A stretch of DNA of 64,000 nt from Crateriforma conspicua (GTDB lineage: Bacteria > Planctomycetota > Planctomycetia > Pirellulales > Pirellulaceae). A program made the position numbers and the translations under genes. The notes under the pieces were generated by a model. It had not been told where the DNA came from, made no database searches, and saw only the letters and a program-made list of their open reading frames with translations. This document shows positions 14,094-53,052 of the stretch, piece by piece (positions within the stretch are counted from its first letter, which is position 1; each line of letters starts with the position of its first letter). The DNA lies in assembly GCF_007752935.1 (NCBI RefSeq), contig NZ_CP036319.1, forward strand, positions 2,356,001-2,420,000. The letters are read 5' to 3'.

Positions 14094-17000
14094 GTGCCCG
14101 TACGCATTTACGCGCTCGCAAAAGAACTGAACCTCGACAGCAAAGACCTTGTTGAAATTGTCAAGAAAGTCGGGCTGACCGGCAAAGGTTCGGCGCTGGC
14201 TAGCTTGACGGATGACGAAGCCGTCAAGGTACGCGAACATCTTTCCGGCGGCGGCGCCTCGGCTGGCAAAAAAGCCCCGGCCGCCAAAGCCGCTCTTGCC
14301 GATTCGAGCCCCGCGGCACCCGTTGCCGCTGTCCGCGACGCCGTTGTTCCCAGCGGGCGTCGCCCGATCACGATCCGAGGCGGACGTGGGGCAACCGAGC
14401 GACGAAACGACGCCGCCGCGACATCTGGCGATGTGACCACCGCCGATGCCCCCACCGAAACCGGGGCCGACGAAGTTCAGGTTTCCGAAACACCGACGGC
14501 GGAAAAAGCACCCGTCCCGGCGATGCCGGCCGAACCACCGGCCACGCCGCCGCCCGCGATGCCGCCGCTGGAGTCCAAGGCAGCTGCCTCCGGTGCGGAT
14601 GATGCCTCGGCCAAGGATCGCTCCGACCAGGCCGAGCGTCCGGTGCCCAAGATGCCCAAGTCCGGTCCGCTGTCACGCGGCCCGCTGTCGAAGGATGCTT
14701 CGCCGTCGCGTCCGATTCCTAGAATGCCTGCCAAGTCGGGCAAGCCGGCCGGTCAACCATCGGCGCCTGCGACGCCGCCCAAGACCGAAAAGAAAGCGGC
14801 ACCTGCTGCGCCGGCTGCCAAGTCCGGTGATACGTCGATGGCCGAACGCATCGCCAGCCGCATGGGGTCCACCGGCAACCGCGTGGTGCCCAATCGTCCG
14901 GGCCAACCGGTGGCTCCGGTCCGCGGCCAAATGGGGGCCGGCAACCGCGTGCGATCGCTGGATCGTCCACGACGTGGGGGCGGTGAAGGTGACGCCAATG
15001 TCAAAGGCGGCGGCGACGCCGGCAAGGGCAAGAAACGCGAACCCAAAATCAAAATCAATCTGGCCCAGCTGCCTGATGCTCCGGCCCCGGCTGAAAAGCC
15101 GGCTGCCAGTGGACCGGCTGCTCAAAAGCCCGATATCAAGCTGAGCAAAGACTTGATCGCCGGCCACAAAAAGGGCATGTCGGCACCGCTGCAAAAACTG
15201 GAATCCGAGGAAAAGGAACGCACCGCGGCCAAGCGTGGCGGTGGCGGCTTGAAAGGTTTCAGTGGCCGTAAGAAGGGTGCGGAGGAAGAAGAGGAACGGC
15301 CCGGCCGCAAGAAAGGCAGCTTGGCCGGCATGGCCAGCGCCCGCGCCGAACGCGTACGGGGTGGCGGTGGCCGCCGAAATTTGGGCTCCGGAGACTACCG
15401 GGGTGGCCGCCGATCGCCCGGCAATTTCCGAAAGACCACGCTGAAACGCAAGGGAACCAACACCGCCGCGCCGCGGAAGGAAAAGGTGACTTTGGAGTTG
15501 CCTTGTACCCTGCGTAGCTTCTGTGAAGCCGCCGGAGTTCCCGTTGCCCAAGTGCTGCGTGTCCTGATGGGCATGCAGATGATGGTCAACATCAACAGCG
15601 AAATCGATTTGGAAACCGCCGAGCTGTTGGCGACGGAGTTGGACCTGGACATCCAGCTGAAAGAAACCGAGACGCTGGAAGAAGAGGTCATCACCCAGCT
15701 GGAGGAAACCGAGGACGATCCGGAATCCTTGGTTGCTCGGCCGCCGATCGTGACGTTCCTGGGGCACGTCGACCACGGGAAAACCAGCCTGCTGGATTAC
15801 CTGATCGGAATCGACGTGGTCAGCGGCGAAGCCGGCGGGATCACCCAGCACATTCGTGCTTACCAGATCGACAAAGACGGCCAGCCGATCACGTTTGTCG
15901 ATACGCCGGGCCACGAAGCGTTTACCGAAATGCGGGCCCGCGGTGCGAACGTCACCGACATCGCGGTGCTGGTCATCGCAGCCGATGACGGCATCATGCC
16001 GCAAACCGAAGAAGCGATCAGCCACGCCAAAGCCGCCGAAGTGCCGATCGTCGTGGCGTTGAACAAGATCGATTTGGAAGGCGTCGATCCGAACCGTGTG
16101 ATGACGCAGTTGACCGAACACCAATTGACGCCCAGCGAATGGGGCGGCGATGTGGAAGTGGTGCCCACCAGTGCCATCAAGGGCACCGGAATGGACACCC
16201 TGTTGGACACATTGCTGACGGTGTCCGAGTTGCATGAATTCACCGCCAACCCGAACCGCCAAGCGTTGGGCGTTTGTTTGGAAGCCGAACAACACGGCGA
16301 CAAGGGGGTGATTTCCAAACTGGTCGTTCAGAACGGAACGCTGAAGGTTGGCGACATCATTGTTTGCGGTCCGGCCCACGGCCGTGTCCGTGCGATGACC
16401 GATCCGCTGACCGGAAAACCGATCACCGAAGCCGGACCGTCCACCCCGGTCAGTTTGACGGGCTTGGATCAACCGCCCGGTGCCGGTGACCGTTTCCACG
16501 TCTTGGATGACATTTCCAAGGCCCGTGAAATCGCCTCGCAACGTGCCGAATCGTCCAGCCGCCAATCCCTGTCGGGCATCACCACCAAGGTGTCGTTCGA
16601 GAACTTCCAAGAAATGTTGATGGAAGGCAAACTGGGGTCGCTGGAAGACAAGGTCAAGTTGAACATCATCGTGCGGGCCGACGTGAAAGGTTCGTTGGAA
16701 GCGATCGACAAGGAACTGAGCAAGTTCGACCACCCCGAGGTCGAAATCCGCGTGCTGCAACGCAGTGTCGGCGGGATCACCTTGGCCGACGTCACCCTGG
16801 CCAGCGCATCCGATGCGGTGATCATCGGTTTCAACGTCATCCCGGACGAACAAGCCCGGTCGATGGCGGACGAACGTGGCGTCGAAATTCGCCGCTACGA
16901 CGTGATCTATAAGTTGACCGACGACATCAAGGCGATGATCGAAGGCCGCTTGAAGCCGGAAGAACGGGTCGTCGAACTGGGACGTGCATTGGTCAAGCAG

Positions 17001-17267
17001 ACCTTCAGCATCAGCCGCGTTGGAACGATCGCCGGGTGCTATGTCGCCCAAGGCGTCATCGAACGTGGGTGCCGCATTCGCGTCAACCGCGACGGCCGGA
17101 CCATCGGCGATTACGCCTTGGATACCCTGCGACGGGTGAAAGAGGATGTCAAAGAAGTCCCCCGCGGAATGGAATGCGGGATTCGATTGGCGAACTTCAA
17201 CGACGTCAAACAGGATGACGTTCTGGAGGCTTACAAGATCGAAGAGGTTGCTCGTACGCTTGATTGA
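14094..17267 (+). CDS. infB: Translation initiation factor IF-2
   Basis: 1057 aa from GTG 14094 (reads VPVRIYALAKELN), with AGGA upstream. The first ~50 residues are the IF2_N domain. Residues ~55-460 are a long low-complexity linker, first Ala/Pro/Glu-rich then Gly/Lys/Arg-rich. A second IF2_N-like segment at ~462-510 (LPCTLRSFCEAAGVPVAQVL) precedes the GTPase: G1 GHVDHGKT at 557-564, G3 DTPGHE, G4 NKID and G5 SAIKG. Domains II-IV follow to the end. IF-2 delivers initiator tRNA to the 30S subunit. The linker is long even for IF-2. Second gene of the nusA-infB-rbfA block. Confidence 0.97.
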   Translation: MPVRIYALAKELNLDSKDLVEIVKKVGLTGKGSALASLTDDEAVKVREHLSGGGASAGKKAPAAKAALADSSPAAPVAAVRDAVVPSGRRPITIRGGRGATERRNDAAATSGDVTTADAPTETGADEVQVSETPTAEKAPVPAMPAEPPATPPPAMPPLESKAAASGADDASAKDRSDQAERPVPKMPKSGPLSRGPLSKDASPSRPIPRMPAKSGKPAGQPSAPATPPKTEKKAAPAAPAAKSGDTSMAERIASRMGSTGNRVVPNRPGQPVAPVRGQMGAGNRVRSLDRPRRGGGEGDANVKGGGDAGKGKKREPKIKINLAQLPDAPAPAEKPAASGPAAQKPDIKLSKDLIAGHKKGMSAPLQKLESEEKERTAAKRGGGGLKGFSGRKKGAEEEEERPGRKKGSLAGMASARAERVRGGGGRRNLGSGDYRGGRRSPGNFRKTTLKRKGTNTAAPRKEKVTLELPCTLRSFCEAAGVPVAQVLRVLMGMQMMVNINSEIDLETAELLATELDLDIQLKETETLEEEVITQLEETEDDPESLVARPPIVTFLGHVDHGKTSLLDYLIGIDVVSGEAGGITQHIRAYQIDKDGQPITFVDTPGHEAFTEMRARGANVTDIAVLVIAADDGIMPQTEEAISHAKAAEVPIVVALNKIDLEGVDPNRVMTQLTEHQLTPSEWGGDVEVVPTSAIKGTGMDTLLDTLLTVSELHEFTANPNRQALGVCLEAEQHGDKGVISKLVVQNGTLKVGDIIVCGPAHGRVRAMTDPLTGKPITEAGPSTPVSLTGLDQPPGAGDRFHVLDDISKAREIASQRAESSSRQSLSGITTKVSFENFQEMLMEGKLGSLEDKVKLNIIVRADVKGSLEAIDKELSKFDHPEVEIRVLQRSVGGITLADVTLASASDAVIIGFNVIPDEQARSMADERGVEIRRYDVIYKLTDDIKAMIEGRLKPEERVVELGRALVKQTFSISRVGTIAGCYVAQGVIERGCRIRVNRDGRTIGDYALDTLRRVKEDVKEVPRGMECGIRLANFNDVKQDDVLEAYKIEEVARTLD

Positions 17268-17849
17268 TCCATCCGACGGCCCTGCGCCTGATTTCGGCGG
17301 GATCGTCCGTGGCGGCGATCGATCTTGCGATGGTTTCGACCGCCGCAGACGCTGGACGGAAACGGATCGCGGTTCACGACGGTGGATCCCACCGCTGCGA
17401 TGACGGCGGCCGGTGACATCGTCCACCTTCCGCGGATCATCGACCCCCGGGATCAATCGGCAACCCACCCAGCAATGATCCTTCGCCATCGTTTCAGTTC
17501 GACCAGACGTTTGCGAATCGCCGGCGTTTTGCCGCGCGATGAGCGCGGCAATTTGCCAATCACGATCCGGATCGATTGCACCCGAGGGGATGCCGGGCCT
17601 GTCGAATCAACGCAAACGTGATCCCGCCGGCACCGGACCTCGCCATGGTTTTCATCACGGCGGTTCGTTCCGGTGAAACGGGGTCGCCGATTCGTTGGCC
17701 CTACCAGTGGGGCGGCACATGGCGGTCGTGACGATCGCATCGGTGCGTTCCCCGCCACTAGCCGCCCGACGACCGACGTTGCGATGGTCGCCGGGTCCGC
17801 CCGAATTATTCTGACCTATCCATCATCCACGAATCCTTACCGACCACTC
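17268..17849. other. 582-bp infB-rbfA gap, no gene recognised
   Basis: Frames exist on both strands (for example 17325-17621 + and 17453-17758 -) but none has recognisable domains, a good SD or convincing protein composition. The ylxP (DUF503) gene found here in many bacteria is absent. It may carry a separate rbfA promoter. Confidence 0.5.
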
Positions 17850-20552: not shown

Positions 20553-22637
20553 ATGCGCAAACGCCGCGGCCGATCGCTGCGACGCGGTCGTCGATGGTTG
20601 GCGGTCGCGTTCGGTGCATTCCAGATGGTCGGTGCCACGCCGATGGCGGCCCAACCGCCCCGTCCGATTCGCTTGCCCGCGTCGGACGCTGGCACGTCGA
20701 CGGCCCACAGTCGCGTCCGCCCAGGTCAGAAATCGTTTGATCTGGCGTCGGTTCGAATCCAGGTGACCGACGATTTTGCGTTGCCACCCGAATCGTCCGA
20801 CGGGGCAGATGCCGTCCATCCCCCATCGCTGGGATCGGCCCAAGCGGAACCGACGCCGGTCACACCAGGGGCCAAGGACGCCACCTTTGTTCCCTTGGAA
20901 ACGCCTGACACGGTGTTGCCACCGACACCCGAGGTGCCCGGCGATGTGTTTTCGCTGGCGACGCCGATCACCGATAACCACGGTTGGCTGGATCCGTATC
21001 GCGGCAGGGTGCTGGAGATTGAAACGGATGTCACCAAGACACCGGACAGCCAAAGCATCCCGTCGTCGGACGAAGTTCACCTTTGGTGGCAAGACGCCCT
21101 GAAGCAACCGTTGGGCATGTCGCCACGTGCGATCCCGGTCGACGTTTCTTGGTTGACCCGGACGGCACTGCAATCATCGCCGCTGGTTCAATCTTTGCTG
21201 ACCCAGCCAAAGATTGACCAGACGGCGGTGGTGATCGCCGACGCGGAATTCGATGCCGCGGTTTATCTGGAAGGCAAATTTGTCGACACCGATGAACCGG
21301 TCGGCGATACGTTGACGACCGGCCGCGCGTTCGGTCGCTACCGTGACGAAACGTTTTCGGCGGACGTGGGCATGAACCGCCAGTTGCGTGGCGGGGGAAC
21401 GTTGGAAGCGGTACAGCGCGGTGGATTTCAACAGAACAACAGCGACTTTCTGGTCCCCAACCCACAGGGCACCACACGGTTGGAACTGAACTATTCCCAG
21501 CCGTTGCTGAAGAACCACGGACGTGCGGTCAACGAAATCAGTATCGTTCTGGCCAGCATCGACGTTCGATTGACGCGTGGCGAAGTCCGACAAGCGTTGG
21601 AAAAGCATTTGGTATCGGTCACGCGAGCGTATTGGGATCTGTACCAGGCCCGTTGCGAATGGATGCAGCGGAGCCGCTTGCTGCGACGCACCGAAAAGCT
21701 GCATTCCATTGTCGTGGCGCGTCAGCATGTCGACACGATCACGCGGCAGCGTTTGCGATCCGAGGCGGCTTTGGCCGAACGCCGGACGGGACTGAGTCGT
21801 GCGGAGGCTTCGATCGGCGACGCTCAGGCCAAATTGCGGATGTTGACGGGCAGCGAGATTTTGCAGCACGACGTGCATGTCGAATTGACGCCCCAGGAAG
21901 TCCCACCGGCGGTGCTGATCCCCATCGCCACGCGTGATGCGGCGGTCATGGCGCTGGACAATCGTCCTGATTTGGACGTCGCAATGCAGCGGATTCGATC
22001 GGCATCGGCCAAGATCGGCGTCGCCAAGAATCAGGTTCTGCCGCGGTTGGATTTGTTGCTGACGGGATACGTCGCGGGTCTTGATTCACGCCGCGACACT
22101 TGGGGGGCTTTTCTGAACCAATTTTCCGACGGTGCTCCCACTTACGCGGCCGGATTGCGATGGGAATTGCCGGTCGGCAATCGCGCGGCGCGGGCACGAT
22201 TGACCCGAAATCGCTGGGAATACTGTCGGGCGTTAGAAGAATTCCGACAAGCGACCGAATCGGTGTTGGCGGATGTTGACATCGCCACACGCGAAACGAA
22301 AACCAGCTATCAAGAGATGTCGGCTCGTTATCAGTCGATTTTGGCCGCGCGTCGCGAAGTCGATTACTTGCAACAACGCTATGAACGCTTGGTCGAACCG
22401 CAGCAATCCGCGATCGTACTGATCGAAGACTTGCTGGACGCCCAACAGCGTCTGTTCAACGCGGAAAAAGACTTTGTCGACGCGCAGGTCGCCTATGCAA
22501 TGTCGTGGGTCGAATTACGTCGATCCATGGGCGTCCTGTTGCGGGCCGCGTCAAGCCAAACGGATGACGTGGACGCGTCGCAACAGGTCGATGCACCGGA
22601 GATGATGTTTGGCGATGTGGTGGAGCCGGCACAATGA
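20553..22637 (+). CDS. TolC-family outer membrane efflux/secretion protein
   Basis: 694 aa from ATG 20553 (MRKRRGRSLRRGRRWLAVAF), whose basic N-terminus and hydrophobic stretch ending PMAAQ suit a signal peptide; ATG 20499 and 20409 are upstream alternatives. Residues ~30-200 are a Pro-rich region peculiar to this protein. After that come two TolC/OEP-type repeats: beta segments (FRQTYRF-like barrel strands, QPLLKNHGRAVNEISIVLAS) and long helices (EKHLVSVTRAYWDLYQA, LAERRTGLSRAEASIGDAQA, YQEMSARYQSILAARREVDY). It should form a trimeric outer-membrane and periplasmic channel. Its stop overlaps the start of the SecA-like gene by ATGA, opening a five-gene operon. Confidence 0.88.
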   Translation: MRKRRGRSLRRGRRWLAVAFGAFQMVGATPMAAQPPRPIRLPASDAGTSTAHSRVRPGQKSFDLASVRIQVTDDFALPPESSDGADAVHPPSLGSAQAEPTPVTPGAKDATFVPLETPDTVLPPTPEVPGDVFSLATPITDNHGWLDPYRGRVLEIETDVTKTPDSQSIPSSDEVHLWWQDALKQPLGMSPRAIPVDVSWLTRTALQSSPLVQSLLTQPKIDQTAVVIADAEFDAAVYLEGKFVDTDEPVGDTLTTGRAFGRYRDETFSADVGMNRQLRGGGTLEAVQRGGFQQNNSDFLVPNPQGTTRLELNYSQPLLKNHGRAVNEISIVLASIDVRLTRGEVRQALEKHLVSVTRAYWDLYQARCEWMQRSRLLRRTEKLHSIVVARQHVDTITRQRLRSEAALAERRTGLSRAEASIGDAQAKLRMLTGSEILQHDVHVELTPQEVPPAVLIPIATRDAAVMALDNRPDLDVAMQRIRSASAKIGVAKNQVLPRLDLLLTGYVAGLDSRRDTWGAFLNQFSDGAPTYAAGLRWELPVGNRAARARLTRNRWEYCRALEEFRQATESVLADVDIATRETKTSYQEMSARYQSILAARREVDYLQQRYERLVEPQQSAIVLIEDLLDAQQRLFNAEKDFVDAQVAYAMSWVELRRSMGVLLRAASSQTDDVDASQQVDAPEMMFGDVVEPAQ

Positions 22638-24664
22638 TTCCACGATTCACCATGGGCTTGGCACGCAAACGTGATCGGCTGACGATCGGGGACCGCTATC
22701 GTGTCGGTATTCGCGAGATGGTTCGTCGTTGTTGCGATGAACTGACACCGCTGTGTGAACATGCCCACGATCGCTACATCGAACGGTCGCCACAGCAGGT
22801 GCGCGATCACTTCACCATGCTGCGTGGCCAAATCGTTGATGGCATGTTCGCGATCGACGATGCTTCGGCGTGGGCTGATTTGGCCGGATGCATCACTGCA
22901 GCGCTACAGCACACGCTGGACAAGCGTTTGTATCCGACCCAGATTCTGGCGGGATGGCAGATCGCGGCCGGCCGGATCGCTCAAATGCAAACCGGTGAAG
23001 GCAAGACGTTGGCGTGTTTCCTGCCGGCTTGCCTGATGGCGGCAACCGGACGCGGTGTGCATGTGGTCTGTCCCAATGATTATCTGGCACAACGTGACGC
23101 TCAGTTGCTCGCGCCGGCTTTCGAATCGCTTGGTTTGTCGTGTGGTGTCGTTCTGGATGACCCAAATCCGGCGGCAAAGACGGATCTGTACCACGGCGAC
23201 GTGGTGTATGCGCCGGGCGCAGTGCTGGGGTTCGATTTTCTGCGCGATCGCTTGGCCGAAACACAGTGGATGCGGTTGGGGCGATCGCATCGTCTGGCCC
23301 AAACGGCGATGGGGCAAGGACGACCGCCTGCGATGATGCGTCCGTTGCACGCGGTCATCGTGGACGAAGCGGATCACGTATTGATCGACGATGCTGTGTC
23401 GCCACTGATTTTGTCACAGCGTCGTCAAGTCGGCCGGCAATTGGATGACCTGCTGATGTCGGCTCGCCAGGCCGCAATGCGGATGCAATCCGACATCGAC
23501 TATGTGGTTCGTCAGGATCATCGCCAAGTCGAATTCACCGCAGACGGGTTTCATCGCATCTACGACGATCAATGGCCGGTGGATGATGCAAGGTTGAAGC
23601 GTCCTTGGCATGACTACGTACGCGCGGCGTTGTTGGCGCAGCATGTGTTTCAACGCGATCGTGATTACGTGATTCAAGATCAAACGGTCCAGATCGTTGA
23701 TCGATCCACCGGGCGAATCTTTGCCGACCGCAGTTGGTCCGGCGGCATCCACCAGGCCGTTGAAACGAAGGAAGGCGTTCCGGTGACGGCCGAAACGGAA
23801 TCGGCCAGTCAAACGACGCGACAAGCCTTTTTTCGCCGCTATCGCTGGATCGGTGGAATGACAGGGACATCGGATGGTTGCCAGCGGGAATTTGCGTCGG
23901 TGTATCGCTGCTGCGTCCAGGTGATTCCGTTGCGTTTGGCCAGTCGTCGGTGTGTATTGGCCGACGCGATCTTTGCCGACCAGGATGCCAAGGTTCAGTG
24001 GATCGTCGATGAAGCGGTGCATGCATCGCGGATCGGTCGTGCGGTGTTGATCGGCACGCTAAGCATCGAACAGTCGCTGGCGATTTCCCAGCTTTTTGAT
24101 CGCTGTGGCATCCGGCATCAGGTGTTAAGCGGGATCCAAGACCGCGGCGAGGCGGAGATCATCGCCGACGCCGGGCAAAGTGGCGCGGTGACCGTGGCCA
24201 CCAGCTTGGCCGGACGCGGGACGGACATCGCATTGGATGCGACGACTCGGCAACGTGGCGGTTTGCACGTCATCGTGTGCGAACACCATCGTCTGGCTCG
24301 GGTGGATCGTCAGTTGATCGGACGTTGTGCGCGGGGTGGCGATCCTGGGACGGCGCGGTTTTGTCTGGCCGCCGACGACGGAATTGCCCAAGGCCGCAAC
24401 GACTGGTTCGGAGGCCTGATTCGCGGGCACGTCCGGTCGGTCGGAAACGGCGTGGCCGGATCGCATGACCATGCGTCGCTGGTTCGTCCCGTCGATGTTC
24501 CGCCGGGGCAATTGCGTCAACACGTTTTGGACATTCAACAAAACCAACAACGCAACGAAACCGCCGCGCGGCTGGCAATGATGCGGCAATATCAGGTCGA
24601 TCAGGCTTGGCAGACGCCACGGCCGGCCTGGCAACCCGATTCCGAGCTTTCCTTTCAAGGATGA
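22634..24664 (+). CDS. SecA-like translocase ATPase, C-terminally truncated paralogue
   Basis: 676 aa, starting within the TolC stop (ATGA). All SecA motor motifs are present: Walker A GEGKT at 121-125, CPNDYLAQRD, Walker B DEAD at 244-247 followed by LIDDAVSPLIL, the preprotein-binding domain at ~285-395 (RSTGRIFADRSWSGGIHQAV), GGMTGTSDG, and TSLAGRGTDIAL at 524-534 with QLIGRCARGGDPGTARF closing NBD2. Only ~94 residues follow, against about 280 in E. coli SecA, so much of the helical scaffold/wing region and the zinc-binding tail are missing. The housekeeping SecA is presumably elsewhere. Position between TolC-like and adaptor genes suggests a dedicated motor for this export system (inference). 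Confidence 0.9.
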   Translation: MIPRFTMGLARKRDRLTIGDRYRVGIREMVRRCCDELTPLCEHAHDRYIERSPQQVRDHFTMLRGQIVDGMFAIDDASAWADLAGCITAALQHTLDKRLYPTQILAGWQIAAGRIAQMQTGEGKTLACFLPACLMAATGRGVHVVCPNDYLAQRDAQLLAPAFESLGLSCGVVLDDPNPAAKTDLYHGDVVYAPGAVLGFDFLRDRLAETQWMRLGRSHRLAQTAMGQGRPPAMMRPLHAVIVDEADHVLIDDAVSPLILSQRRQVGRQLDDLLMSARQAAMRMQSDIDYVVRQDHRQVEFTADGFHRIYDDQWPVDDARLKRPWHDYVRAALLAQHVFQRDRDYVIQDQTVQIVDRSTGRIFADRSWSGGIHQAVETKEGVPVTAETESASQTTRQAFFRRYRWIGGMTGTSDGCQREFASVYRCCVQVIPLRLASRRCVLADAIFADQDAKVQWIVDEAVHASRIGRAVLIGTLSIEQSLAISQLFDRCGIRHQVLSGIQDRGEAEIIADAGQSGAVTVATSLAGRGTDIALDATTRQRGGLHVIVCEHHRLARVDRQLIGRCARGGDPGTARFCLAADDGIAQGRNDWFGGLIRGHVRSVGNGVAGSHDHASLVRPVDVPPGQLRQHVLDIQQNQQRNETAARLAMMRQYQVDQAWQTPRPAWQPDSELSFQG

Positions 24665-24669
24665 ATGTG

Positions 24670-25503
24670 ATGCGTTTGTCGATCATGTTGCCCGCTATCG
24701 CTTGGCTGCTGTGCACATCAATGGTTCGGGCCGAAGGCGTGCGAGGATTCTCCGAACCGTATCGGCGTGTGATGGTATCCGCCTCGGAAATGGGAACGTT
24801 GGCGGCGATTGACGTGGTCGAAGGACAGCATGTTCAGCGCGATCAAGTCTTGGGGCAACTGGACGATCGCGTTCTGCAAGCCAGTTTGAAAATCGCGCAA
24901 GCCGCCAAGGATGCCGAAGGTGCCATGCGGGCCGCCAAAATCGACTTGGAAATCAAGAAGCGTCACTTGGAAGGCTTCGTCGAACTCAGTCAGGCGGGCA
25001 ATGCAAGTGTCCGGGAAGTGGAACGGGCCCAAGCCGACTATGACCAAGCACTCGCGCGGGTACAGGCCGCTGAAGAACAGATCTTGTTGCGGCAGTTGGA
25101 ATACGATCGCACTATCCAGCAGATTGAAAAACGCCGGGTTCGTTCGCCTTTTGATGGTATCGTGACGGAGATCATCAAGCGTCCCGGCGAATTCGTTTCA
25201 CCAACCGATCCGGTGATCTTCGAAGTGGTGCAACTGGACACGCTCCGGTGCAACCTAACGATTCCCAATGATCAGATCCAACATCTGCGTTTGGGCATGG
25301 AAGTCAAACTGGTCGTGGGACAGCGGCAGGAACCCGTCACCGCGATGGTCGAATACATCGCGCCGGTTGTTGATCCACAAAGTGGAACGGTTCTGGTGAA
25401 ATTGCGAATCCCCAACAGTTCACAAGAGCTGAAGGCGGGGTTGGTTTGCCGTTTGGATTTGCCAGGTGATACACGCACCGCACGGTTGTTGCGGACCCGC
25501 TGA
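24670..25503 (+). CDS. Periplasmic adaptor (membrane fusion protein, HlyD/AcrA type)
   Basis: 277 aa from ATG 24670, chosen because AAGGA at 24657-24661 lies 8 nt upstream; ATG 24661, overlapping the SecA-like stop, is the alternative. A signal peptide ends near MVRAEG. The protein has the usual split lipoyl domain (VSASEMGTLAAIDVVEGQHV and RRVRSPFDGIVTEI) around a coiled-coil hairpin (~60-140), then a beta-barrel (LRCNLTIPNDQI) and a PQSGTVLVKLRI domain. Family role: bridges an inner-membrane component to a TolC-like channel. Its stop shares a base with the next ATG (TGATG). Confidence 0.92.
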   Translation: MRLSIMLPAIAWLLCTSMVRAEGVRGFSEPYRRVMVSASEMGTLAAIDVVEGQHVQRDQVLGQLDDRVLQASLKIAQAAKDAEGAMRAAKIDLEIKKRHLEGFVELSQAGNASVREVERAQADYDQALARVQAAEEQILLRQLEYDRTIQQIEKRRVRSPFDGIVTEIIKRPGEFVSPTDPVIFEVVQLDTLRCNLTIPNDQIQHLRLGMEVKLVVGQRQEPVTAMVEYIAPVVDPQSGTVLVKLRIPNSSQELKAGLVCRLDLPGDTRTARLLRTR

Positions 25504-27092
25504 TGCATCCCAGTCGCGTGTCTCATGCCACGCGGATCGGATCGGGTGAAGAAGAAGGCGGGAGTGCCGTGTCGCAGTATGAATCCATCACGAATCGCAG
25601 CAGCGATGCCGACGGGCGGGCGGTGTCCGGCCGTTCGCTCGCCGGTTCGGACGATGCCACGGCGGCGCTCGATGCCGCGATGCACTTGTTGTCCCGTTTG
25701 GGACAGGCCGGTGATTCGATCGATCCTGCCGCGGTCGTTTTGGCCGACGCGTTGGAGCTGCAAATCCATTTGGAATCGCATCGTGACCTGCACGATGCCA
25801 TGTGCGAAGCGGCCGGTTGGATGGGACGGTCATGGTCGGCGCGGACGGTCATCGTCGGCTTCATCGACAGCCCCGAATCGCCTTGCCGCGATGCGATCGT
25901 CTGGCACTGTCCAACGGCGGAGGATCCCGAAGAAAGGATCGAAAGCAAGCTGGATTCGCAACAAGACGCCGCGCTGGACGAGGCGCTGCGACGTGGAGAA
26001 CCGACGTGGTTCCCGCCACGGCATCCGGGCGATCGCTGTGGGGCTTTGGCGATCGAGCGATTGGCAAATTCGATCGATGCGACGCTGTTGCTGACCGTTC
26101 CCTTGGTCGACGAACGTCTTCGTTGCTGTGGCGTGGTGCTGCTGGTCGAACCATCACCGCCCGATCCATCCATTTGCATCCAAAGCCGCGTGAATGCGGT
26201 GGCGGTGCCACTGGCGGAAAAGCTTTCGCAGTTGTATCGGCATCGTCCGTCACGACTGCAACGTTGGTTGGGGGACCTCGGCAAAGCGATCAGCGGCCGA
26301 AGCGGCACGATTCTGTGGTGCAGCGTCGTGTGTCTGTGTTTGTTGTTGATGATTCCCATTCCGTACAACATTCATGGCCAGTGTGAATTGCTGCCCAGCG
26401 GACGCCGCTTTGTGGTGGCGCCGGTCGACGGTCCTTTGGAATCTTCACGCGTCCGACGTGGGGATTCGGTTGCCCGTGGCGATGTGTTGGCCGTCATCAA
26501 CGCGTCGGAAATGGATTTGGAATTGGCGGCGTTGGAAGCGGAATTGGCCCGTTCTCGCAAGGCAATCGACACCTATCTGGCGGAAAGCAAGACGGCACAA
26601 CAACAGTTGGCGGAGCTGGAAGCAGAACGCTTCGAGCTGGAATCCCAATTGTTGCGGCATCGTCGCAGCCAACTGCAATTGACCAGTCCGATTGATGGAG
26701 TGGTTATCCGTGGCGATCTTCGCGACGCCGAAGACGCACCGCTGACGCGCGGTCAAACACTGTTTGAAGTCGCGCCTTTGGGACGTCAGCGTTTGGAGAT
26801 CGCGATTCCACAATCGGAAATCGCCTACGCCGCTGCGGGTTCAATGGCCACGTTTCGGTTGCACGCTTTCGCCGATCGCGAATGGATGACGACGGTGCGT
26901 CGTATCCACCGGACCGCTGATGTCAAAGACCGAGAAAATGTATTTATCGCCGAAGCGGTCATCGATGACCCCGAACATCTTTTACGGCCCGGCATGAAGG
27001 GGCGTGCCTGGATCGAATCGGGGACGGCTTCGTTGGGGTGGGTGATGTTGCATCGGCCCATCGCCCGATTGCGCGTCTGGTTGGGATGGTGA
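25503..27092 (+). CDS. GAF-like domain - TM - HlyD adaptor fusion
   Basis: 529 aa from ATG 25503, overlapping the previous TGA; ATG 25524 and later Met codons are alternatives. Residues ~75-240 look like a cytoplasmic GAF-type domain (AMCEAAGWMGRSWSARTVIV, LLTVPLVDERLRCCGVVLL, VAVPLAEKLSQLY). A single membrane helix lies at ~268-285 (ILWCSVVCLCLLLMIPI). The rest is an HlyD-like adaptor: lipoyl half VAPVDGPLESSRVRRGDSV, coiled coil ~340-385, second half LTSPIDGVVIRGDLRD, then a beta-barrel and a short C-terminus. The fusion would couple a cytosolic sensor or docking domain to a periplasmic adaptor. What the GAF domain binds is unknown. Confidence 0.82.
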   Translation: MHPSRVSHATRIGSGEEEGGSAVSQYESITNRSSDADGRAVSGRSLAGSDDATAALDAAMHLLSRLGQAGDSIDPAAVVLADALELQIHLESHRDLHDAMCEAAGWMGRSWSARTVIVGFIDSPESPCRDAIVWHCPTAEDPEERIESKLDSQQDAALDEALRRGEPTWFPPRHPGDRCGALAIERLANSIDATLLLTVPLVDERLRCCGVVLLVEPSPPDPSICIQSRVNAVAVPLAEKLSQLYRHRPSRLQRWLGDLGKAISGRSGTILWCSVVCLCLLLMIPIPYNIHGQCELLPSGRRFVVAPVDGPLESSRVRRGDSVARGDVLAVINASEMDLELAALEAELARSRKAIDTYLAESKTAQQQLAELEAERFELESQLLRHRRSQLQLTSPIDGVVIRGDLRDAEDAPLTRGQTLFEVAPLGRQRLEIAIPQSEIAYAAAGSMATFRLHAFADREWMTTVRRIHRTADVKDRENVFIAEAVIDDPEHLLRPGMKGRAWIESGTASLGWVMLHRPIARLRVWLGW

Positions 27093-27096
27093 TCGG

Positions 27097-29316
27097 ATGG
27101 CGGAATCGTACGACACCTTGGATGTCATGACACGGCCGGTGCGACTGAAACCGGGCTTGCGTTTTCGGCCCGTCCGCCAGCGTGGGCGTTGGCTCTGTCA
27201 GATCGAACAACCGTCACAGCATCGCTTTTTCCGCATCGGACCGACGGAATACGCGTTGATCAGCTTCTTTGACGGACAGACGACGTTGGCCCAGGCCTGT
27301 GCGATGGCGGCGGCCAAGTTGGGCTGCGATGCACCGTCGACCGAACGTGCCAAAAGCGTTTTGCAGTGGATGGTGCGTCAGCGTCTGGCATCGTTCGCGG
27401 ACAATCAAAATGACGTTGGGATAACCGAAACCATTGGGCACTTGCGGTCGGGTGGCTCATCGCATTCGGCCACGTCGGTGAATTCGGATCGCACCGCATG
27501 GTGGCAGCGATTCAATCCGTTTTGGATCAAGCTTCCTTTGCCAAATGTTCATCGCGTGTTGGATGCTGCTTCGATGGCTGTGTTGCCGTTGTATCAGCGT
27601 CTCGGCTGCATCCTTTGGTCTTTGCTGATTCTGGTCGGAATGGGGATGGCTTGGATTCAGCGTGGTGAATTGGTGGCCGGCGGAACCGATGTCTTTGATC
27701 CCGACCAGTGGGCCTACTTGATCGGTATTTGGCTGGTTTTGAAATTGGTTCACGAACTGGGGCATACCGCGGCGTGCCGGCGATACGGTGTGAAGGTTCG
27801 GCAGGCGGGGATTGTGGCCGTCTTGTTGATGCCGATGGTCTACGTGGATCTGACAGATGCTTGGATGTGCCGCAGTCGCCGTAAGCGGATGATCATCAGT
27901 GCCGCCGGAATCTACTTGGAATTGGGAATCGCAGCCATCGCCGTCTTGGGTTGGACTTGGTCAGCCGATCCGGTGCAACGATTGGTATGGCACCAGGTGC
28001 TGTTTGCCGCTGGGGTTTCGACCGTGCTGTTCAATGCGAATCCTTTGATGCGGTTTGACGGCTACTATCTGTTGGCGGACGCTTTTGATTTTCCCAATCT
28101 GTATTCCGTCGCACAGCGAAGGGTTGCGTCGTCGATGCGTTGGTTGCTGTTGGGCCAACGTCCGCCGGATTTTGACGAACCGTGGTGGCGTCGCTGGGCG
28201 ATCGATGCGTATGGATGGGCGTCCCTGTTTTGGAAGGGGATCATAGCAGTGACGCTGGGGATCGCTGCCGCCTGGATGTTTCAGGGCGCCGGCGTGTTGA
28301 TCGCCATCCTGGGAATCGCACAGTGGGTGGGGCGGCCCCTGGTCGCCGCGTTTCAAACGATGAAGCAAGAATCGGCGGGGACGTCGATGCTGCGGCCGGT
28401 TTTCGTCACGTTCGCCGGCTTGGGGCTGATCTCGGGAATCGTGTTTTGGATGCCGTTTCCGACACGACTGGCGGCCCCCGCGGTGGTTCGATTCCCACCG
28501 GAGTGTTCGGTCCGCTGCGGCGTGGACGGTTTTGTCACCGCGGTGTTTGTCCGCGAAGGGCAATGGGTATCACCAGGCGATGTGTTGGCATCGCTGGAAA
28601 ATGATGCCTTGCGAATCGAACTGGCCGATGTGGAAATTCAGTTGCAACAGATCGAACAACAACAACTGACCGCGATCCACCAACTGGATGCCGCTGCGGA
28701 TCAGATCTTTCAACAGCGGCGGGCATCCCTGGTCAGTCGTCGTGATCATCTGGCGAGACAGGTCGACCGATTGCGGCTGGTGGCGCATCGCACCGGGCGG
28801 GTCGAAGCGCGGGGTTTGGAAGAGCGTTTGGGAATGTACGTCCAGAAGGGCGATTCCTTGATGGACATCGTCGATGATGGGCACAAGGAAGTGGTCGCAT
28901 TGATCGACCAAGCGGGCATTCGCACCGCACGACGGTTTGAAGGGGACGCCACGATCTTTGCCAGCGAAGCGGTGGGGAATTTCACCGGGAAACTGGAACG
29001 CATCGAACCTCAGGCGACCGATCGATTGCCCACGCCGGCTCTGGCGGCCACGTCCGGCGGGCCGATGGCGGTGCGAACGGATGATTCGCCATCGGATTCG
29101 TTGGAACCGAACGAAGGGCCCGGCGAATCCGTCCGCTTGATCGAACCACATTTCATGGCGATTGCGCGTTTGGACGAATCGACCGCCAAGCGGGTGCCCG
29201 CCGGATTGTTGGTGGAAGCACGTTTGGGGTACCGCGACGAAACGATTGCCCAGCGGGTTCGCACCGCTTTATTGCAACGCTGGTACGACGACGCGGCCGC
29301 TTCGAACCGCCGGTGA
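27097..29316 (+). CDS. PqqD-like domain - M50 metalloprotease-like membrane domain - HlyD adaptor fusion
   Basis: 739 aa, four bases after the previous stop. Residues ~15-105 resemble a PqqD/RiPP-recognition winged helix (FFRIGPTEYALISFFDGQTT, WMVRQRLASF). Membrane helices begin near 155. HELGH at 219-223 with NPLMRFDGYY at 315-324 are the zinc-binding and NPxxxDG motifs of site-2 (M50) proteases. From ~485 a periplasmic adaptor follows: VRCGVDGFVTAVFVREGQWV, a coiled coil ~535-575, and a second lipoyl-like half (ERLGMYVQKGDSLMDIVDD). Similar fusions are known with peptide export and RiPP loci. Its zinc motifs look intact; whether it cuts a substrate or serves as the inner-membrane channel is not known. 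Last gene of the operon. Confidence 0.86.
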   Translation: MAESYDTLDVMTRPVRLKPGLRFRPVRQRGRWLCQIEQPSQHRFFRIGPTEYALISFFDGQTTLAQACAMAAAKLGCDAPSTERAKSVLQWMVRQRLASFADNQNDVGITETIGHLRSGGSSHSATSVNSDRTAWWQRFNPFWIKLPLPNVHRVLDAASMAVLPLYQRLGCILWSLLILVGMGMAWIQRGELVAGGTDVFDPDQWAYLIGIWLVLKLVHELGHTAACRRYGVKVRQAGIVAVLLMPMVYVDLTDAWMCRSRRKRMIISAAGIYLELGIAAIAVLGWTWSADPVQRLVWHQVLFAAGVSTVLFNANPLMRFDGYYLLADAFDFPNLYSVAQRRVASSMRWLLLGQRPPDFDEPWWRRWAIDAYGWASLFWKGIIAVTLGIAAAWMFQGAGVLIAILGIAQWVGRPLVAAFQTMKQESAGTSMLRPVFVTFAGLGLISGIVFWMPFPTRLAAPAVVRFPPECSVRCGVDGFVTAVFVREGQWVSPGDVLASLENDALRIELADVEIQLQQIEQQQLTAIHQLDAAADQIFQQRRASLVSRRDHLARQVDRLRLVAHRTGRVEARGLEERLGMYVQKGDSLMDIVDDGHKEVVALIDQAGIRTARRFEGDATIFASEAVGNFTGKLERIEPQATDRLPTPALAATSGGPMAVRTDDSPSDSLEPNEGPGESVRLIEPHFMAIARLDESTAKRVPAGLLVEARLGYRDETIAQRVRTALLQRWYDDAAASNRR

Positions 29317-29335: not shown

Positions 29336-30592
29336 CTACGAAACCAATGATTGCACCTGGCGAATCAAGTCGCGGTAGTTGGTTTGCGGTGTTAGGATGC
29401 CCGTCAGTGTGACGATCGGCTGGCCGATGGCGATGTCGTCGGTTTGGGCGGGGATGTCGGTGCACCGGATCGATTGGTCTTCGGCGTGCAACTGGCGGCA
29501 CCATCGCTGGATGGCTTGCGAACACAGTCTTCCCGCCCGAAGCGAGTAGACGATCCGTTTGAATCGATGAATTGAATGATTTGGATTCGGGACCCGCACC
29601 CAAGTATGCAGACGCTCGGATTGTGCCCGAACGTGCCACCGGATCAGCGATGGTTGCGTTGCCGGGCTGGAACCGGAGGGCTCCGGTGCAAGTGTGTGTT
29701 CGACTAATTCCATCGACGCGGACCACCGTGGATTGACTTCCAGCAACCACGGTGGCTGGTCGCCTGACAGAACCACATCCGCATTGAACAGGCCGCGGTA
29801 TCGGGTTCGTTCCACCAGGCTTTGGCCAAGACGCTGCAGCCGATCCTGTGTCGACTGTTGCAAGGACACCGGGCCGAGGGAACCGGCGTAGATGAATGGC
29901 AGATCGCCGAACCTGGTGGTGATGGTCCGGCACACCCCCAGCATTCTCGCTTCGGCCCCATCGGCGATGTATGTCACGCCATGCGTTCGCCCGGCGACCC
30001 ATTGTTGTTGAAACGTCATGCCGGGTTGGAATTTGCGATTCGGATCCGACCATCGAACGCCCAAGCCGCCGGTGCCCGTCATCGATTTTTCCAGCCAGCG
30101 GTCATGGTCTACCGATTGCCGCCGGTGTTGGTGCGCTGTGCTTGCTTCATCGACGATCGGACGAGTCGCGGGAAATCGACAATCCGATACCCCGGCCGCC
30201 TGGGCCCAAAGATCGCGGCAGCGGATCGTTTTTGCTTCGCACCACCGCCCTTGATCAACTTCGACGTCCGGCGGAGTGATCAGATCACCGGCGGCGACAA
30301 CGGCGGCGTCTGGCCACCGGGCCTTGGCACGCCGTAGGGCGGCCGCGATCTGGTCCGGACCGGAAATCTGCTGGAATTCTTCACAAAGATCTCGAGTATC
30401 CGCGTCGCCGAATCGGTCGATTCCCCAAATTCGCAGGCCTCCACGGCGGGCCGACGCGGCGGCGGATCGCACCGATGCCCCCATCAGGATGACTTTACCG
30501 ACCACGGCGGCCGAATCGGTTGACGGGGCTGGGCTGTCGCGGTGGTCTGGCGGAGGTTCCGTATCGCCCGGGATCGCGTCAGGTGCTTGCAT
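29336..30592 (-). CDS. ATP-grasp protein of the H4MPT/C1 gene set (Orf17-like)
   Basis: 418 aa from ATG 30592 (GTG 30595 is adjacent in frame). An N-terminal Pro/Ser tail is followed by a Rossmann-like PreATP-grasp region (KVILMGASVRSAAASARRGG, IDRFGDADTRDLCEEF) and an ATP-grasp core with WLEKSMTGTGGLGVR, FQQQWVAGRTHGVTYIA and FNADVVLSGDQPPWLLEVNPR, the last carrying the metal-binding Glu-x-Asn. It is divergent from fae and 80 bp away; ATP-grasp genes of this type accompany H4MPT gene sets in methylotrophs and planctomycetes. Likely role: a ligase step in H4MPT or methanofuran-like cofactor synthesis (inference). It converges on the M50 gene with an 19-bp gap. Confidence 0.8.
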   Translation of the reverse strand: MQAPDAIPGDTEPPPDHRDSPAPSTDSAAVVGKVILMGASVRSAAASARRGGLRIWGIDRFGDADTRDLCEEFQQISGPDQIAAALRRAKARWPDAAVVAAGDLITPPDVEVDQGRWCEAKTIRCRDLWAQAAGVSDCRFPATRPIVDEASTAHQHRRQSVDHDRWLEKSMTGTGGLGVRWSDPNRKFQPGMTFQQQWVAGRTHGVTYIADGAEARMLGVCRTITTRFGDLPFIYAGSLGPVSLQQSTQDRLQRLGQSLVERTRYRGLFNADVVLSGDQPPWLLEVNPRWSASMELVEHTLAPEPSGSSPATQPSLIRWHVRAQSERLHTWVRVPNPNHSIHRFKRIVYSLRAGRLCSQAIQRWCRQLHAEDQSIRCTDIPAQTDDIAIGQPIVTLTGILTPQTNYRDLIRQVQSLVS

Positions 30593-30676
30593 CACGGTGC
30601 CGCTCTGCTACGTTCATCACTTCCATGGCCCACCCCCGCCCCCTCGAAATTACATTCTTGAAAGGTACCGACACTC

Positions 30677-31174
30677 ATGCAGTTTTACATCGGCGAAGCC
30701 CTGGTCGGCGACGGCAACGAAGTTGCCCACATTGACTTGATGATCGGCAGCAAGAACGGCCCGGTCGGAACCGCATTTGCCAACGCGCTGTCGACCCAGA
30801 GTGACGGTCACACCAACCTGCTGGCGGTTCTGGAGCCCAACGTTGCTGTGAAGCCGTCGACGGTCATGATCACCAAGGTCACGATCAAGGGCATGAAGCA
30901 AGCCGTGCAGATGTTCGGTCCCGCCCAAGCCGCTGTGGCCAAGGCTGTTGCCGATTCGGTTGCCGACGGCGTGATCCCCAAGGATCAAACCGAAGAATTG
31001 GTTTGCGTCTGTGGCGTGTTCATCCACCCGGCCGCTGAAAGTGACGAAAAGATCTACACGTACAATTACGAAGCCACCAAGCAAGCGATCGCCGCCGCGA
31101 TGAAGAACGAACCGTCGGCCGATCAAATGTTGGCCAAGAAGGACAGTGCGGCGCACCCGTTCAAGGGATTCTAA
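30677..31174 (+). CDS. fae: Formaldehyde-activating enzyme
   Basis: 165 aa from ATG 30677, with AAAGG upstream. IGEALVGDGNEVAHIDLMIG is the Fae signature; H18 is the catalytic acid. The rest matches the family throughout (NLLAVLEPNVAVKPSTVMI, MFGPAQAAVAKAVADSVADG, CGVFIHPAA, YNYEATKQAI). Fae condenses formaldehyde with H4MPT to methylene-H4MPT. Length is normal. The gene is followed by a UUCG hairpin and a terminator-like structure before mtdB, so it may be expressed above mtdB. Confidence 0.97.
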   Translation: MQFYIGEALVGDGNEVAHIDLMIGSKNGPVGTAFANALSTQSDGHTNLLAVLEPNVAVKPSTVMITKVTIKGMKQAVQMFGPAQAAVAKAVADSVADGVIPKDQTEELVCVCGVFIHPAAESDEKIYTYNYEATKQAIAAAMKNEPSADQMLAKKDSAAHPFKGF

Positions 31175-31179
31175 TCTTG

Positions 31180-31193
31180 GCGGGTTCGCCCGC
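31180..31193 (+). other. Small hairpin with UUCG loop after fae
   Basis: GCGGG (31180-31184) and CCCGC (31189-31193) close a TTCG tetraloop six bases after the fae stop. There is no T tract. It may protect the fae mRNA 3' end or form part of a two-hairpin ending with the next structure. Confidence 0.45.
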
Positions 31194-31223
31194 TTGCAAT
31201 GACGCCAACGACTTTCAAACGTT

Positions 31224-31262
31224 CCCCGGCCGCGCAGTTTTTGCCGGTCGGGGTTTTATTTT
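31224..31262 (+). terminator. Terminator-like hairpin between fae and mtdB
   Basis: CCCCGGCCG (31224-31232) pairs with CGGTCGGGG (31245-31253) with one G-U, and TTTTATTTT follows at 31254-31262. This has the form of a rho-independent terminator or attenuator. It ends only 9 nt before the mtdB ATG. Confidence 0.7.
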
Positions 31263-31271
31263 GGATACATC

Positions 31272-32150
31272 ATGCCCAAAAAGATTCTGTTGCAGTTTGA
31301 CACCGGTGACCATGCCAGTTCCTTTGATTCGGTGGTGGCAATCGATTCCGGGGTGGATCACCTGTTGACCTATCGCGACGTTCATCCGTCGGCGGTGCGT
31401 GGTCTGGTCCACGGTGCGATGTTCACACGCGGTGGTGACGACTTGGCATCGACCGCGATTTTCATCGGCGGCGAAGACGTCCTGGATGCTGAGAAGTTGT
31501 TGCAGTCGGTGTGCAACACCTTCTTTGGGCCCGTCCGCGTTTCGGTGATGTTGGATGCCGGCGGCTGTAACACGACGGCCAGCGCGGCGGTGGTCGCGGC
31601 GGGACGACACGTCGAACTGGGAAATGCCAAAGCGGCGGTGTTGGGCGGTACCGGACCGGTCGGTCGACGCGTCGCCCAGTTGCTGGCCGGTGAAGGCGCC
31701 GACGTGGTGTTGACCAGCCGTTCACAGGAGCGTGCCGAAGCCGCGTGCCAAGACATTCGTGAAAAAGTGGGGGCGGATCAAGCATCCACCGCGTTGCTGA
31801 CCGCTGCGGCACCTCGCGGCGAAAACGAATTGAAAAAGGTGATGGCGGATCGCAACTGCGTGATTGCTTGTGGGGCCGCGGGAGTCCAATTGTTGTCCGC
31901 CCAAGTGGTGGAATCGATGTCCGATCTGGCCGTGGCGATCGACCTGAATGCGGTCCCACCGGCGGGGATCGAAGGCGTGTCGATGACGGACAAGGCCGTG
32001 CCTGTTGGCGGCGGCGTCGGATACGGCGCGATCGGGGTGGGTGGGTTGAAGATGCGAACGCACGTCCAGGCGATCGAGCGGTTATTCACGGCGAACGATC
32101 TGGTGCTGGACGCCGAAGAGATCTATGCGATTGCAAAAACCGTCGGGTGA
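31272..32150 (+). CDS. mtdB: NAD(P)-dependent methylene-H4MPT dehydrogenase
   Basis: 292 aa from ATG 31272 with a weak GGA site. The protein opens with MPKKILLQFDTGDHASSFDS, typical of MtdA/MtdB, and carries a Rossmann motif VLGGTGPVGRRVAQLLAGEG at ~122-141, TSRSQERAEAAC for the nucleotide ribose, and GGGVGYGAIGVGGLKM. It oxidises methylene-H4MPT to methenyl-H4MPT in the route begun by Fae. MtdB rather than MtdA is inferred from the fae/ftr context; NAD versus NADP preference cannot be read with certainty. Confidence 0.92.
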   Translation: MPKKILLQFDTGDHASSFDSVVAIDSGVDHLLTYRDVHPSAVRGLVHGAMFTRGGDDLASTAIFIGGEDVLDAEKLLQSVCNTFFGPVRVSVMLDAGGCNTTASAAVVAAGRHVELGNAKAAVLGGTGPVGRRVAQLLAGEGADVVLTSRSQERAEAACQDIREKVGADQASTALLTAAAPRGENELKKVMADRNCVIACGAAGVQLLSAQVVESMSDLAVAIDLNAVPPAGIEGVSMTDKAVPVGGGVGYGAIGVGGLKMRTHVQAIERLFTANDLVLDAEEIYAIAKTVG

Positions 32151-52558: not shown

Positions 52559-53052
52559 CCAGTTCTAACAATCGGGGCAACTAATGGGAGGCAGCAATTC
52601 AGTCGACGCAGGATACACCGCCGTCGCGTTTTTGGGCAGCAAGGGCCGCAGCGACGGCGTGCGGCTTGGCGTGCGGCTTGGCGTGCGGCTTGGCGTGCGG
52701 CTTGGCGTGCGGCTCGGCGGCCGGCGTGAGACTCGGGGCGGTTGACCGAGCCGGAAAGGCCGCCTCGTTTGCCCGATCACCCCAAGCATCGGATTCCCCG
52801 TCGCCGGGTTAACCGCGAAGAAGTCCAGACGCAACACCGCGACAAATCGGCGGCTGTGAAAAACGAGCGTGTCGGCAACGCTCTTCTTGAGAGAAAATAA
52901 AGGACGCAGGTTCGTCAGAGCCACGCGCGTGCAGTCATGTTTTGAATCATGCTGGTGTGCCCCGGCGGCAAAACCTGCCCATCCCACCCGCCTTTGTCTG
53001 CGTCGGCGAATCATCCCTCGTGATTGCCACGCGCATCCCCACCCTGACCATC
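52559..53052. other. 494-bp divergent region with a 12-bp tandem repeat
   Basis: Between lysA (-) and the adaptor gene (+). It contains five 12-bp units at 52657-52716. Frames crossing it are repeat artefacts or extensions of the flanking genes. Promoters for both genes must lie here but none is clear. Confidence 0.5.
52657..52716 (+). repeat. 12-bp tandem repeat, five units
   Basis: Four exact copies of GCGTGCGGCTTG and a fifth with one change (GCGTGCGGCTCG), in direct tandem. Intergenic, about 100 bp upstream of lysA. Such arrays vary in copy number by replication slippage. Confidence 0.9.

Follow-up and report, generated by a model that had tools for sequence, protein, structure and literature searches.

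We analyzed an operon of five co-oriented genes in a 64,000-nucleotide stretch of the genome of Crateriforma conspicua (the window; bases 2356001–2420000 of a single contig of 7.18 Mb), which combines a TolC-family channel protein, a short SecA-like ATPase, two HlyD-type proteins and a fusion of an M50 intramembrane metalloprotease with an HlyD adaptor (M50-HlyD; Table 1). An earlier note on this DNA had described five genes joined by overlaps or gaps of at most 5 bp, and the coordinates bear this out. The first two genes overlap by 4 bp, the adaptor gene overlaps the SecA-like gene by 4 bp when its start is taken as the ATG at 24661 (the alternative TTG at 24607 would give an overlap of 58 bp), the third and fourth genes overlap by 1 bp, and 4 bp separate the fourth gene from the fifth. 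Pfam searches agree with the identities proposed there for the channel, the adaptor and the SecA-like protein with its preprotein-binding region. For the two fusion proteins the description stood in part: HlyD was found in the fourth protein and both M50 and HlyD in the fifth, and in the window copies Pfam gave no match to GAF (E ≤ 0.01) or to PqqD, domains that it detected in 5 of 9 relatives of the fourth protein and in 7 of 36 members of the M50-HlyD family, respectively. As stated in the note, none of the five genes encodes an ABC exporter (Pfam). No Pfam match to an RND motor was obtained in eight large flanking open reading frames (ORFs), two of which matched no Pfam family at all; other large ORFs were not part of this search.

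Table 1. Genes of the operon in the window, with positions counted from the first base of the window.
Feature	Position	Strand	Length	Family matches (E-value)	Remarks
TolC-family outer membrane channel protein	20553..22637	+	694 aa	OEP 1.5e-28 (Pfam)	proline-rich N-terminal extension
Short SecA-like ATPase	22634..24664	+	676 aa	SecA_DEAD 3.6e-70, SecA_PP_bind 2.3e-24, P-loop_SecA 1.8e-38 (Pfam)	
HlyD-type periplasmic adaptor	24661..25503	+		HlyD_D23 4.6e-20 (Pfam); RND_mfp 2.9e-37	
Second HlyD-type protein, GAF-HlyD family member	25503..27092	+		HlyD_D23 1.3e-15 (Pfam)	N-terminal soluble part
PqqD-like / M50 intramembrane metalloprotease / HlyD adaptor fusion	27097..29316	+	739 aa	Peptidase_M50 2.5e-6, HlyD_3 3.5e-10 (Pfam)	

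The SecA-like protein of the window keeps the DEAD motor, the preprotein-binding domain and the second motor domain. Most of the scaffold, wing and C-terminal parts are absent, and no scaffold or wing family is listed among its Pfam matches. Among complete relatives, contig-end fragments set aside, the tail, measured from where motif VI begins, has either 81–113 or 240–280 residues. In a tree of 180 sequences a single branch (support 0.88) splits all 64 long SecAs from 111 of the 112 short ones, the exception (L078), placed with the long side, being located at a contig end; by this tree the short SecAs are a clade separate from the long SecAs. The source genome contains three SecA_DEAD genes: one is long, and the two short ones are the gene in the window and a further copy near 3277236–3279134. 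The window protein is thus outside the clade of the long SecAs and is not the only copy, which supports the interpretation given in the earlier note. Like SecA2 of accessory Sec systems, it is a SecA-family ATPase present in addition to a long SecA. It differs from SecA2 in its position in the tree, in that all NCBIfam SecA and SecA2 models listed match it below their cut-offs, and in that the short SecAs are associated with HlyD and M50 proteins and not with SecY2. With about 105 residues after motif VI, it lacks the full scaffold, wing and two-helix finger of SecA and SecA2. Within motif VI (24323–24349) the window copy reads RCARGGDPG where the family has RCARQGDPG; the glutamine replaced by glycine, Q568, is nearly invariant among 29 aligned short SecAs. 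In another planctomycete (G205:C1:438462-440327) the match to a short SecA contains one inner TAA and is perhaps a decayed or misassembled copy.

In the M50-HlyD protein of the window the zinc site is formed by HELGH at residues 219–223 and the aspartate of NPLMRFD at 321. The HExxH motif and the aspartate of NPxxRxD are kept in 75 of 75 M50-HlyD sequences that cover both sites (two partial rows do not cover them). Because this site is intact throughout, the M50 part is probably an enzyme, a point that the earlier note had not raised, and a role as a mere pore is disfavoured. An AlphaFold2 model (pLDDT 86) places long helices around the zinc motifs and predicts strands followed by helices at residues 13–100, an arrangement compatible with PqqD. 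Its adaptor domain matches AcrA, MacA and MexA in Foldseek; the best 50 rows are adaptors and contain no M50 structure. The protein also matches the models of the daptide and YydH/LiaK metalloproteases. These proteases, which act in the maturation of ribosomally synthesized and post-translationally modified peptides (RiPPs), share with it an M50 domain with HExxH and, sometimes, a PqqD-like domain; the window fusion scores below their cut-offs, is joined to an HlyD adaptor, and its apparent cargo consists of giant proteins.

The gene set of the window operon recurs across phyla, in support of the earlier note, and its grouping exceeds what chance would give. Among 97 short-SecA loci (not dereplicated, some cut by contig ends), we identified M50-HlyD within 8 kb of the short SecA at 60, GAF-HlyD at 58, HlyD at 56 and TolC at 24; an ABC-type ORF, recognized by a motif test, lies within this distance at one locus only. 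Such loci have been described before. Kamneva, Poudel and Ward reported "secondary SecA_DEAD" genes in the neighbourhood of genes for M50, HlyD and GAF-HlyD proteins, suggested that SecA serves as the ATPase, and called the role of the locus completely unknown (Kamneva et al., 2015; PMC4452313). The window operon is a member of this locus family: its SecA is extra to a long SecA and its neighbours match. It shares with the loci of that account a SecA_DEAD protein without scaffold and wing beside M50-HlyD, GAF-HlyD, HlyD and sometimes OEP genes, a separate SecA clade, and the lack of an ABC transporter in the locus. We therefore do not claim the discovery of the operon, and the earlier note was wrong in supposing that no description had been published. 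The main text of the 2015 paper names neither a cargo nor an export tag and does not propose a protease role, and the words giant, cadherin, hemolysin and VCBS are absent from it. In the open-access literature accessible to our searches, no link was found between this locus and proteins carrying LEPR-XLL motifs or DUF4347 domains, no exporter is named for such proteins, and no paper mentions SecA together with DUF4347. What is new here is a probable cargo, namely large proteins with repeats that carry a LEPR-XLL motif at the N-terminus and often a DUF4347 domain; the locus family itself was already published.

These candidate cargo proteins start with a basic stretch that ends in the motif L-E-x-R-x-[LM]-[LFM]-[SDA] (LEPR-XLL), often followed by DUF4347. 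For their detection we used the LEPR-XLL model NF012209, the DUF4347 model PF14252 and an LExRxLL-type sequence pattern. The 30 residues ahead of the motif contain a median of 6 K/R, and a hydrophobic stretch was seen in 6% of 114 LEPR N-termini versus 70% of 64 adaptor proteins, in windows that differ slightly. A divergent large ORF with an N-terminal motif resembling LEERLLMS, LEDRLLMSATP or LEPRLLLSADP lies upstream of the operon at five loci from Planctomycetes (L005, L008, L010, L012, and L013) and at L022, L039, L043, L045, and L048 (four Endozoicomonas and one record named Salinisphaera). The large protein of L048 scores 33.6 bits with NF012209 (cut-off 17) and has no DUF4347; that of L010 scores 12.2 bits, below the cut-off, and carries DUF4347; that of L008 is not listed for NF012209 and carries DUF4347. 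Other matches in these three proteins include RTX, Laminin_G, cadherin-like and VCBS-type repeats. In ten records of Vibrio, Endozoicomonas-like bacteria and Oceanospirillaceae, the best NF012209 frames measure 6511–8470 aa. The source genome encodes four DUF4347 genes. All of them show a LEPR-type motif close to the N-terminus, together with cadherin, lectin or carbohydrate-binding domains (2076 aa were covered of the largest, a frame of 8497 aa). Two window ORFs that match a loose LEPR pattern were rejected, as they do not look like LEPR N-termini.

Cargo genes of this type are found next to the operon in both phyla. We inspected 20 planctomycete short-SecA loci chosen by score rank (leaving out the source genome, G122, G241, and the second copy in G176); for comparison we used six stretches, namely the window itself and five from genomes with a short SecA. 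LEPR-type ORFs with a length of 300 aa or more were present at 12 of the 20 loci (32 ORFs in total) and at none of the controls, and shuffled N-termini yielded a mean of 0.43 LEPR-type matches among 328 ORFs. Six of the loci, from the source organism's own family, have three or four LEPR-type genes flanking the operon. In own-family relatives (L390-L396) these LExRxLL-type genes show the variants LESRQLLD, LESRSMLA, LEGREMLN, and LESRLALS, and the genomes mostly have no NF012209 match. In the Gammaproteobacteria, a cargo gene lies within approximately 4 kb of the operon in at least 9 of 18 genomes with a short SecA (G254, G316, G355, G478, G484, G485, G525, G548, and G553; for the first three the distance was obtained by coordinate arithmetic). 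In G516 it is about 7 kb away, and in the remaining genomes it is on another contig, farther away or not resolved. At two Methylobacter loci, a LEARQLF/Y ORF is situated directly downstream. The size of these neighbours, from hundreds to more than 8000 aa, makes it highly improbable that the operon is a RiPP-like system for peptide maturation and export related to the daptide or YydH/LiaK pathways, as the below-cut-off matches of the fusion and the PqqD domains in some of its relatives might suggest. No recurrent modifying enzyme was noticed either; small precursor genes were not searched for.

We also compared the distribution of short SecA and cargo among 281 genomes of Gammaproteobacteria and 244 of Planctomycetota, with counts and Fisher tests that ignore relatedness. 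Short-SecA status was read by eye from match listings. For the Gammaproteobacteria it refers to the matches listed at E ≤ 1e-150 (173 of 281 genomes); the sample is centred on G254, one of its 18 short-SecA genomes, which was chosen because it carries the locus. For the Planctomycetota, 80 genomes were rechecked, approximately 46 with only weak best matches were counted as without and not rechecked, and G026 and G207, with a single short frame each, were taken to have cut long SecAs. Among the matches listed, LEPR-XLL or DUF4347 occurs in 18 of 18 gammaproteobacterial short-SecA genomes (LEPR-XLL in 14, DUF4347 in 14) versus 30 of 263 others. At least 57 of the 244 planctomycete genomes have a short SecA. 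NF012209 (E ≤ 0.01) matches 35 of the 244, at least 29 of which have a short SecA, and among the 209 negatives at least 28 do; DUF4347 is found in 18, at least 12 of them with a short SecA, although 3 of those 12 matches are weak (about 1e-7). In a set of 30 hand-picked short-SecA genomes, at least 6 of which were already known to have a LEPR-type gene, NF012209 matched in 29 at E ≤ 0.05 and in 19 at E ≤ 1e-4, versus 1 of 14 control genomes. Within one genus (g10, nine genomes), DUF4347 is restricted to G144 and G202, and these two alone have four SecA matches where the others have three. Their extra short SecA is part of a TolC-SecA-HlyD-GAFHlyD-M50HlyD operon, divergent from the DUF4347 gene and approximately 3 kb from it. 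Such a matched gain inside one genus, together with the physical adjacency in both phyla, leaves little room for the view that the two gene sets have no functional link and are both simply common in the large genomes of the same lineages, a view favoured by the disregard of relatedness in the counts and by the small size of some cargo-negative control genomes.

The association with the cargo is not restricted to loci with a short SecA. A second TolC-HlyD-GAFHlyD-M50HlyD operon of the source genome (L228, G000:C1:2625000-2644900) lacks SecA and is divergent from the 8497-aa frame, which carries LEDRILLS and DUF4347. In G004, G069, and G092, HlyD, GAFHlyD and M50HlyD adjoin a LEERIV-type cargo gene, and searches of these genomes revealed no short SecA. 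In G027, one HlyD/GAFHlyD/M50HlyD locus beside LEERIV-type cargo has no SecA, and a short SecA is present in a second operon. At four loci of gammaproteobacteria counted as without short SecA (L352, L354, L355, and L357), GAFHlyD, M50HlyD and HlyD adjoin DUF4347. Of 41 genomes that have cargo and no short SecA, 26 match M50-HlyD at E < 1e-80; of 39 genomes with neither cargo nor short SecA none does, several of these being small and two showing weak partial matches (5e-34, 7e-32). Some of the M50-HlyD proteins from loci without SecA are more divergent, and the cargo motifs there include LEPRFMFDGA and LEERIVLDA. These data support M50-HlyD as the more constant part of the system, with the short SecA as a frequent partner. 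The earlier note had proposed a dedicated exporter driven by SecA. Its protein-export role is now better supported, because the associated cargo class can be named, whereas SecA as the defining motor is weakened by the SecA-less genomes that keep M50-HlyD and by the L228 operon, and a role as sole or essential motor loses ground for the same reason.

Two other explanations bear on this distribution. One holds that LEPR-XLL proteins cross the inner membrane otherwise, by SecYEG with the long SecA or by an unseen transporter, and that the M50/HlyD proteins form a module for processing, sorting or surface release with the short SecA as an accessory targeting factor. Operons and genomes with cargo and M50-HlyD without a short SecA fit this scheme, as does the conserved M50 active site. 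The parts through which ordinary SecA contacts SecYEG are missing from the short SecA, which would likewise suit this scheme. We nevertheless consider this scheme unlikely, since LEPR N-termini rarely have the hydrophobic core needed by SecYEG signals and since the adaptors and TolC suggest a through-channel. The other explanation, put forward in outline by Kamneva et al. (2015) and in the earlier note, is an exporter resembling type I secretion systems, in which the short SecA would supply the energy and M50 the pore, and whose substrates would be miscellaneous proteins or peptides without a defined cargo. A TolC-family channel and HlyD/MacA-type adaptors are shared with type I secretion systems and tripartite pumps (HlyBD-TolC, MacAB-TolC), and the conserved SecA/HlyD/M50/GAF neighbourhood, described in the 2015 paper and recovered here, and the near absence of ABC-type ORFs agree with such an exporter. 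We regard it as improbable in view of the specific cargo distribution, the full protease site of M50 and the existence of SecA-less operons. The systems also differ in that no ABC or RND motor was found in the locus, that its place in the inner membrane is taken by an adaptor-fused M50 protease, and that the candidate cargo tag is N-terminal.

The DUF4347 domain may itself be a protease. Proteases of clan CD have a caspase-like fold in which a histidine and a cysteine follow successive core strands. Among 19 DUF4347 sequences one histidine and one cysteine are invariant (H117 and C160), and in a model of one example (L227:10257-10748; pLDDT 80) strands 109–115 and 149–158 end just ahead of these residues, as in clan CD. 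The best PDB match of the model in Foldseek is a Pseudomonas aeruginosa Hcp3-Tce1 entry of a type VI system (1.4e-6), followed by caspases, legumain and MARTX cysteine protease domains; the TM-scores are modest (0.27–0.57). The caspase-like model and the invariant residues suggest that DUF4347 is a cysteine protease with the predicted fold of clan CD, shared with the MARTX domains; it differs from the latter in its position, as it directly follows the tag in the N-terminal region of the cargo.

Taken together, we propose that large LEPR-XLL surface proteins, often with DUF4347, are exported across the envelope and matured by a machine encoded in the operon, and we put the probability of this reading at about 0.6. 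It draws on the co-occurrence in two phyla, the adjacency, the matched gain in genus g10, the non-hydrophobic LEPR N-termini, the intact M50 site and the predicted fold of DUF4347. As part of it, the tag probably stands in place of a hydrophobic signal peptide. The tie between the gene set and LEPR-XLL/DUF4347 proteins is the best-supported claim, and the following steps are offered as hypotheses. The PqqD/RRE-like domain of M50-HlyD would read the LEPR tag in the cytoplasm, by analogy with the RiPP recognition elements (RREs). The M50 protease, whose active site is conserved, could then cut the tag, perhaps after LL. Where present, the short SecA, which has the ATPase motifs, would drive the unfolded chain by ATP hydrolysis. 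HlyD-type adaptors and TolC would, judging from their families, carry the chain outside, where processing or release of the protein may fall to the caspase-like DUF4347 domain. More tentatively, and with some doubt on our part, these steps could constitute a secretion pathway of LEPR-XLL proteins distinct from the numbered types. In it, an RRE-like domain would recognize a non-hydrophobic N-terminal tag, and an intramembrane metalloprotease joined to the periplasmic adaptor would cut this tag; a minimal SecA, where there is one, would drive the giant chain independently of SecYEG, and outside the protein would be processed by its own caspase-like DUF4347.

Several observations weigh against the proposed export and maturation role. 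The window contains no LEPR-type gene by the strict pattern, and none of the four LEPR/DUF4347 genes of the source genome is near the window operon. The second short SecA of this genome (G000:C1:3277236-3279134, L226) has no other gene of the system and no LEPR-type ORF in the surrounding 20 kb. The 12 positive planctomycete loci represent three lineages only (six own-family, four from genus g10, two from genus g9), and a LEPR-type neighbour is missing at 8 of the 20 ranked loci, of which 3 are cut by contig ends. The adjacency control is weak, because the SecA locus itself is LEPR-negative in 4 of the 5 control genomes. Twenty-eight planctomycetes with a short SecA have no NF012209 match; in 12 of them the short-SecA locus nevertheless contains LExRxLL genes, so that NF012209 alone is too insensitive as a cargo detector. 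Some DUF4347 genes show no motif by the pattern used (for example L231, L232, L353, L356, L360-L362, and L383), 15 of the 41 cargo-positive genomes without short SecA are also without M50-HlyD, and PqqD matches are few in the M50-HlyD family. For the motor role in particular, cargo-bearing genomes that keep M50-HlyD do not all have a short SecA. We infer transport, cleavage and the motor role of SecA from genes and models.

The surroundings of the window operon belong to other functions. Upstream are genes for NusA, IF-2, RbfA and YebC; antisense to the IF-2 gene, a 938-aa open frame (14673–17489, minus strand) probably arises from codon bias and does not represent a gene. Directly downstream (29336–32150) lie genes for an ATP-grasp protein, a formaldehyde-activating enzyme and a methylene-tetrahydromethanopterin dehydrogenase-like protein, pointing to C1 metabolism. 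Approximately 24 kb from the operon, separate genes for an HlyD-type protein and a MacB-like permease (52942–55799) form a conventional MacAB-like set.

The association described here ties together two orphans, the secretion-like locus without a known role published in 2015 and the LEPR-XLL/DUF4347 tag of some of the largest predicted bacterial proteins. If the proposed reading is true, these bacteria would possess a dedicated export route in which the signal can be tested, the protease is named and the cargo is listed, and one would have to ask whether a minimal SecA can operate without SecYEG.

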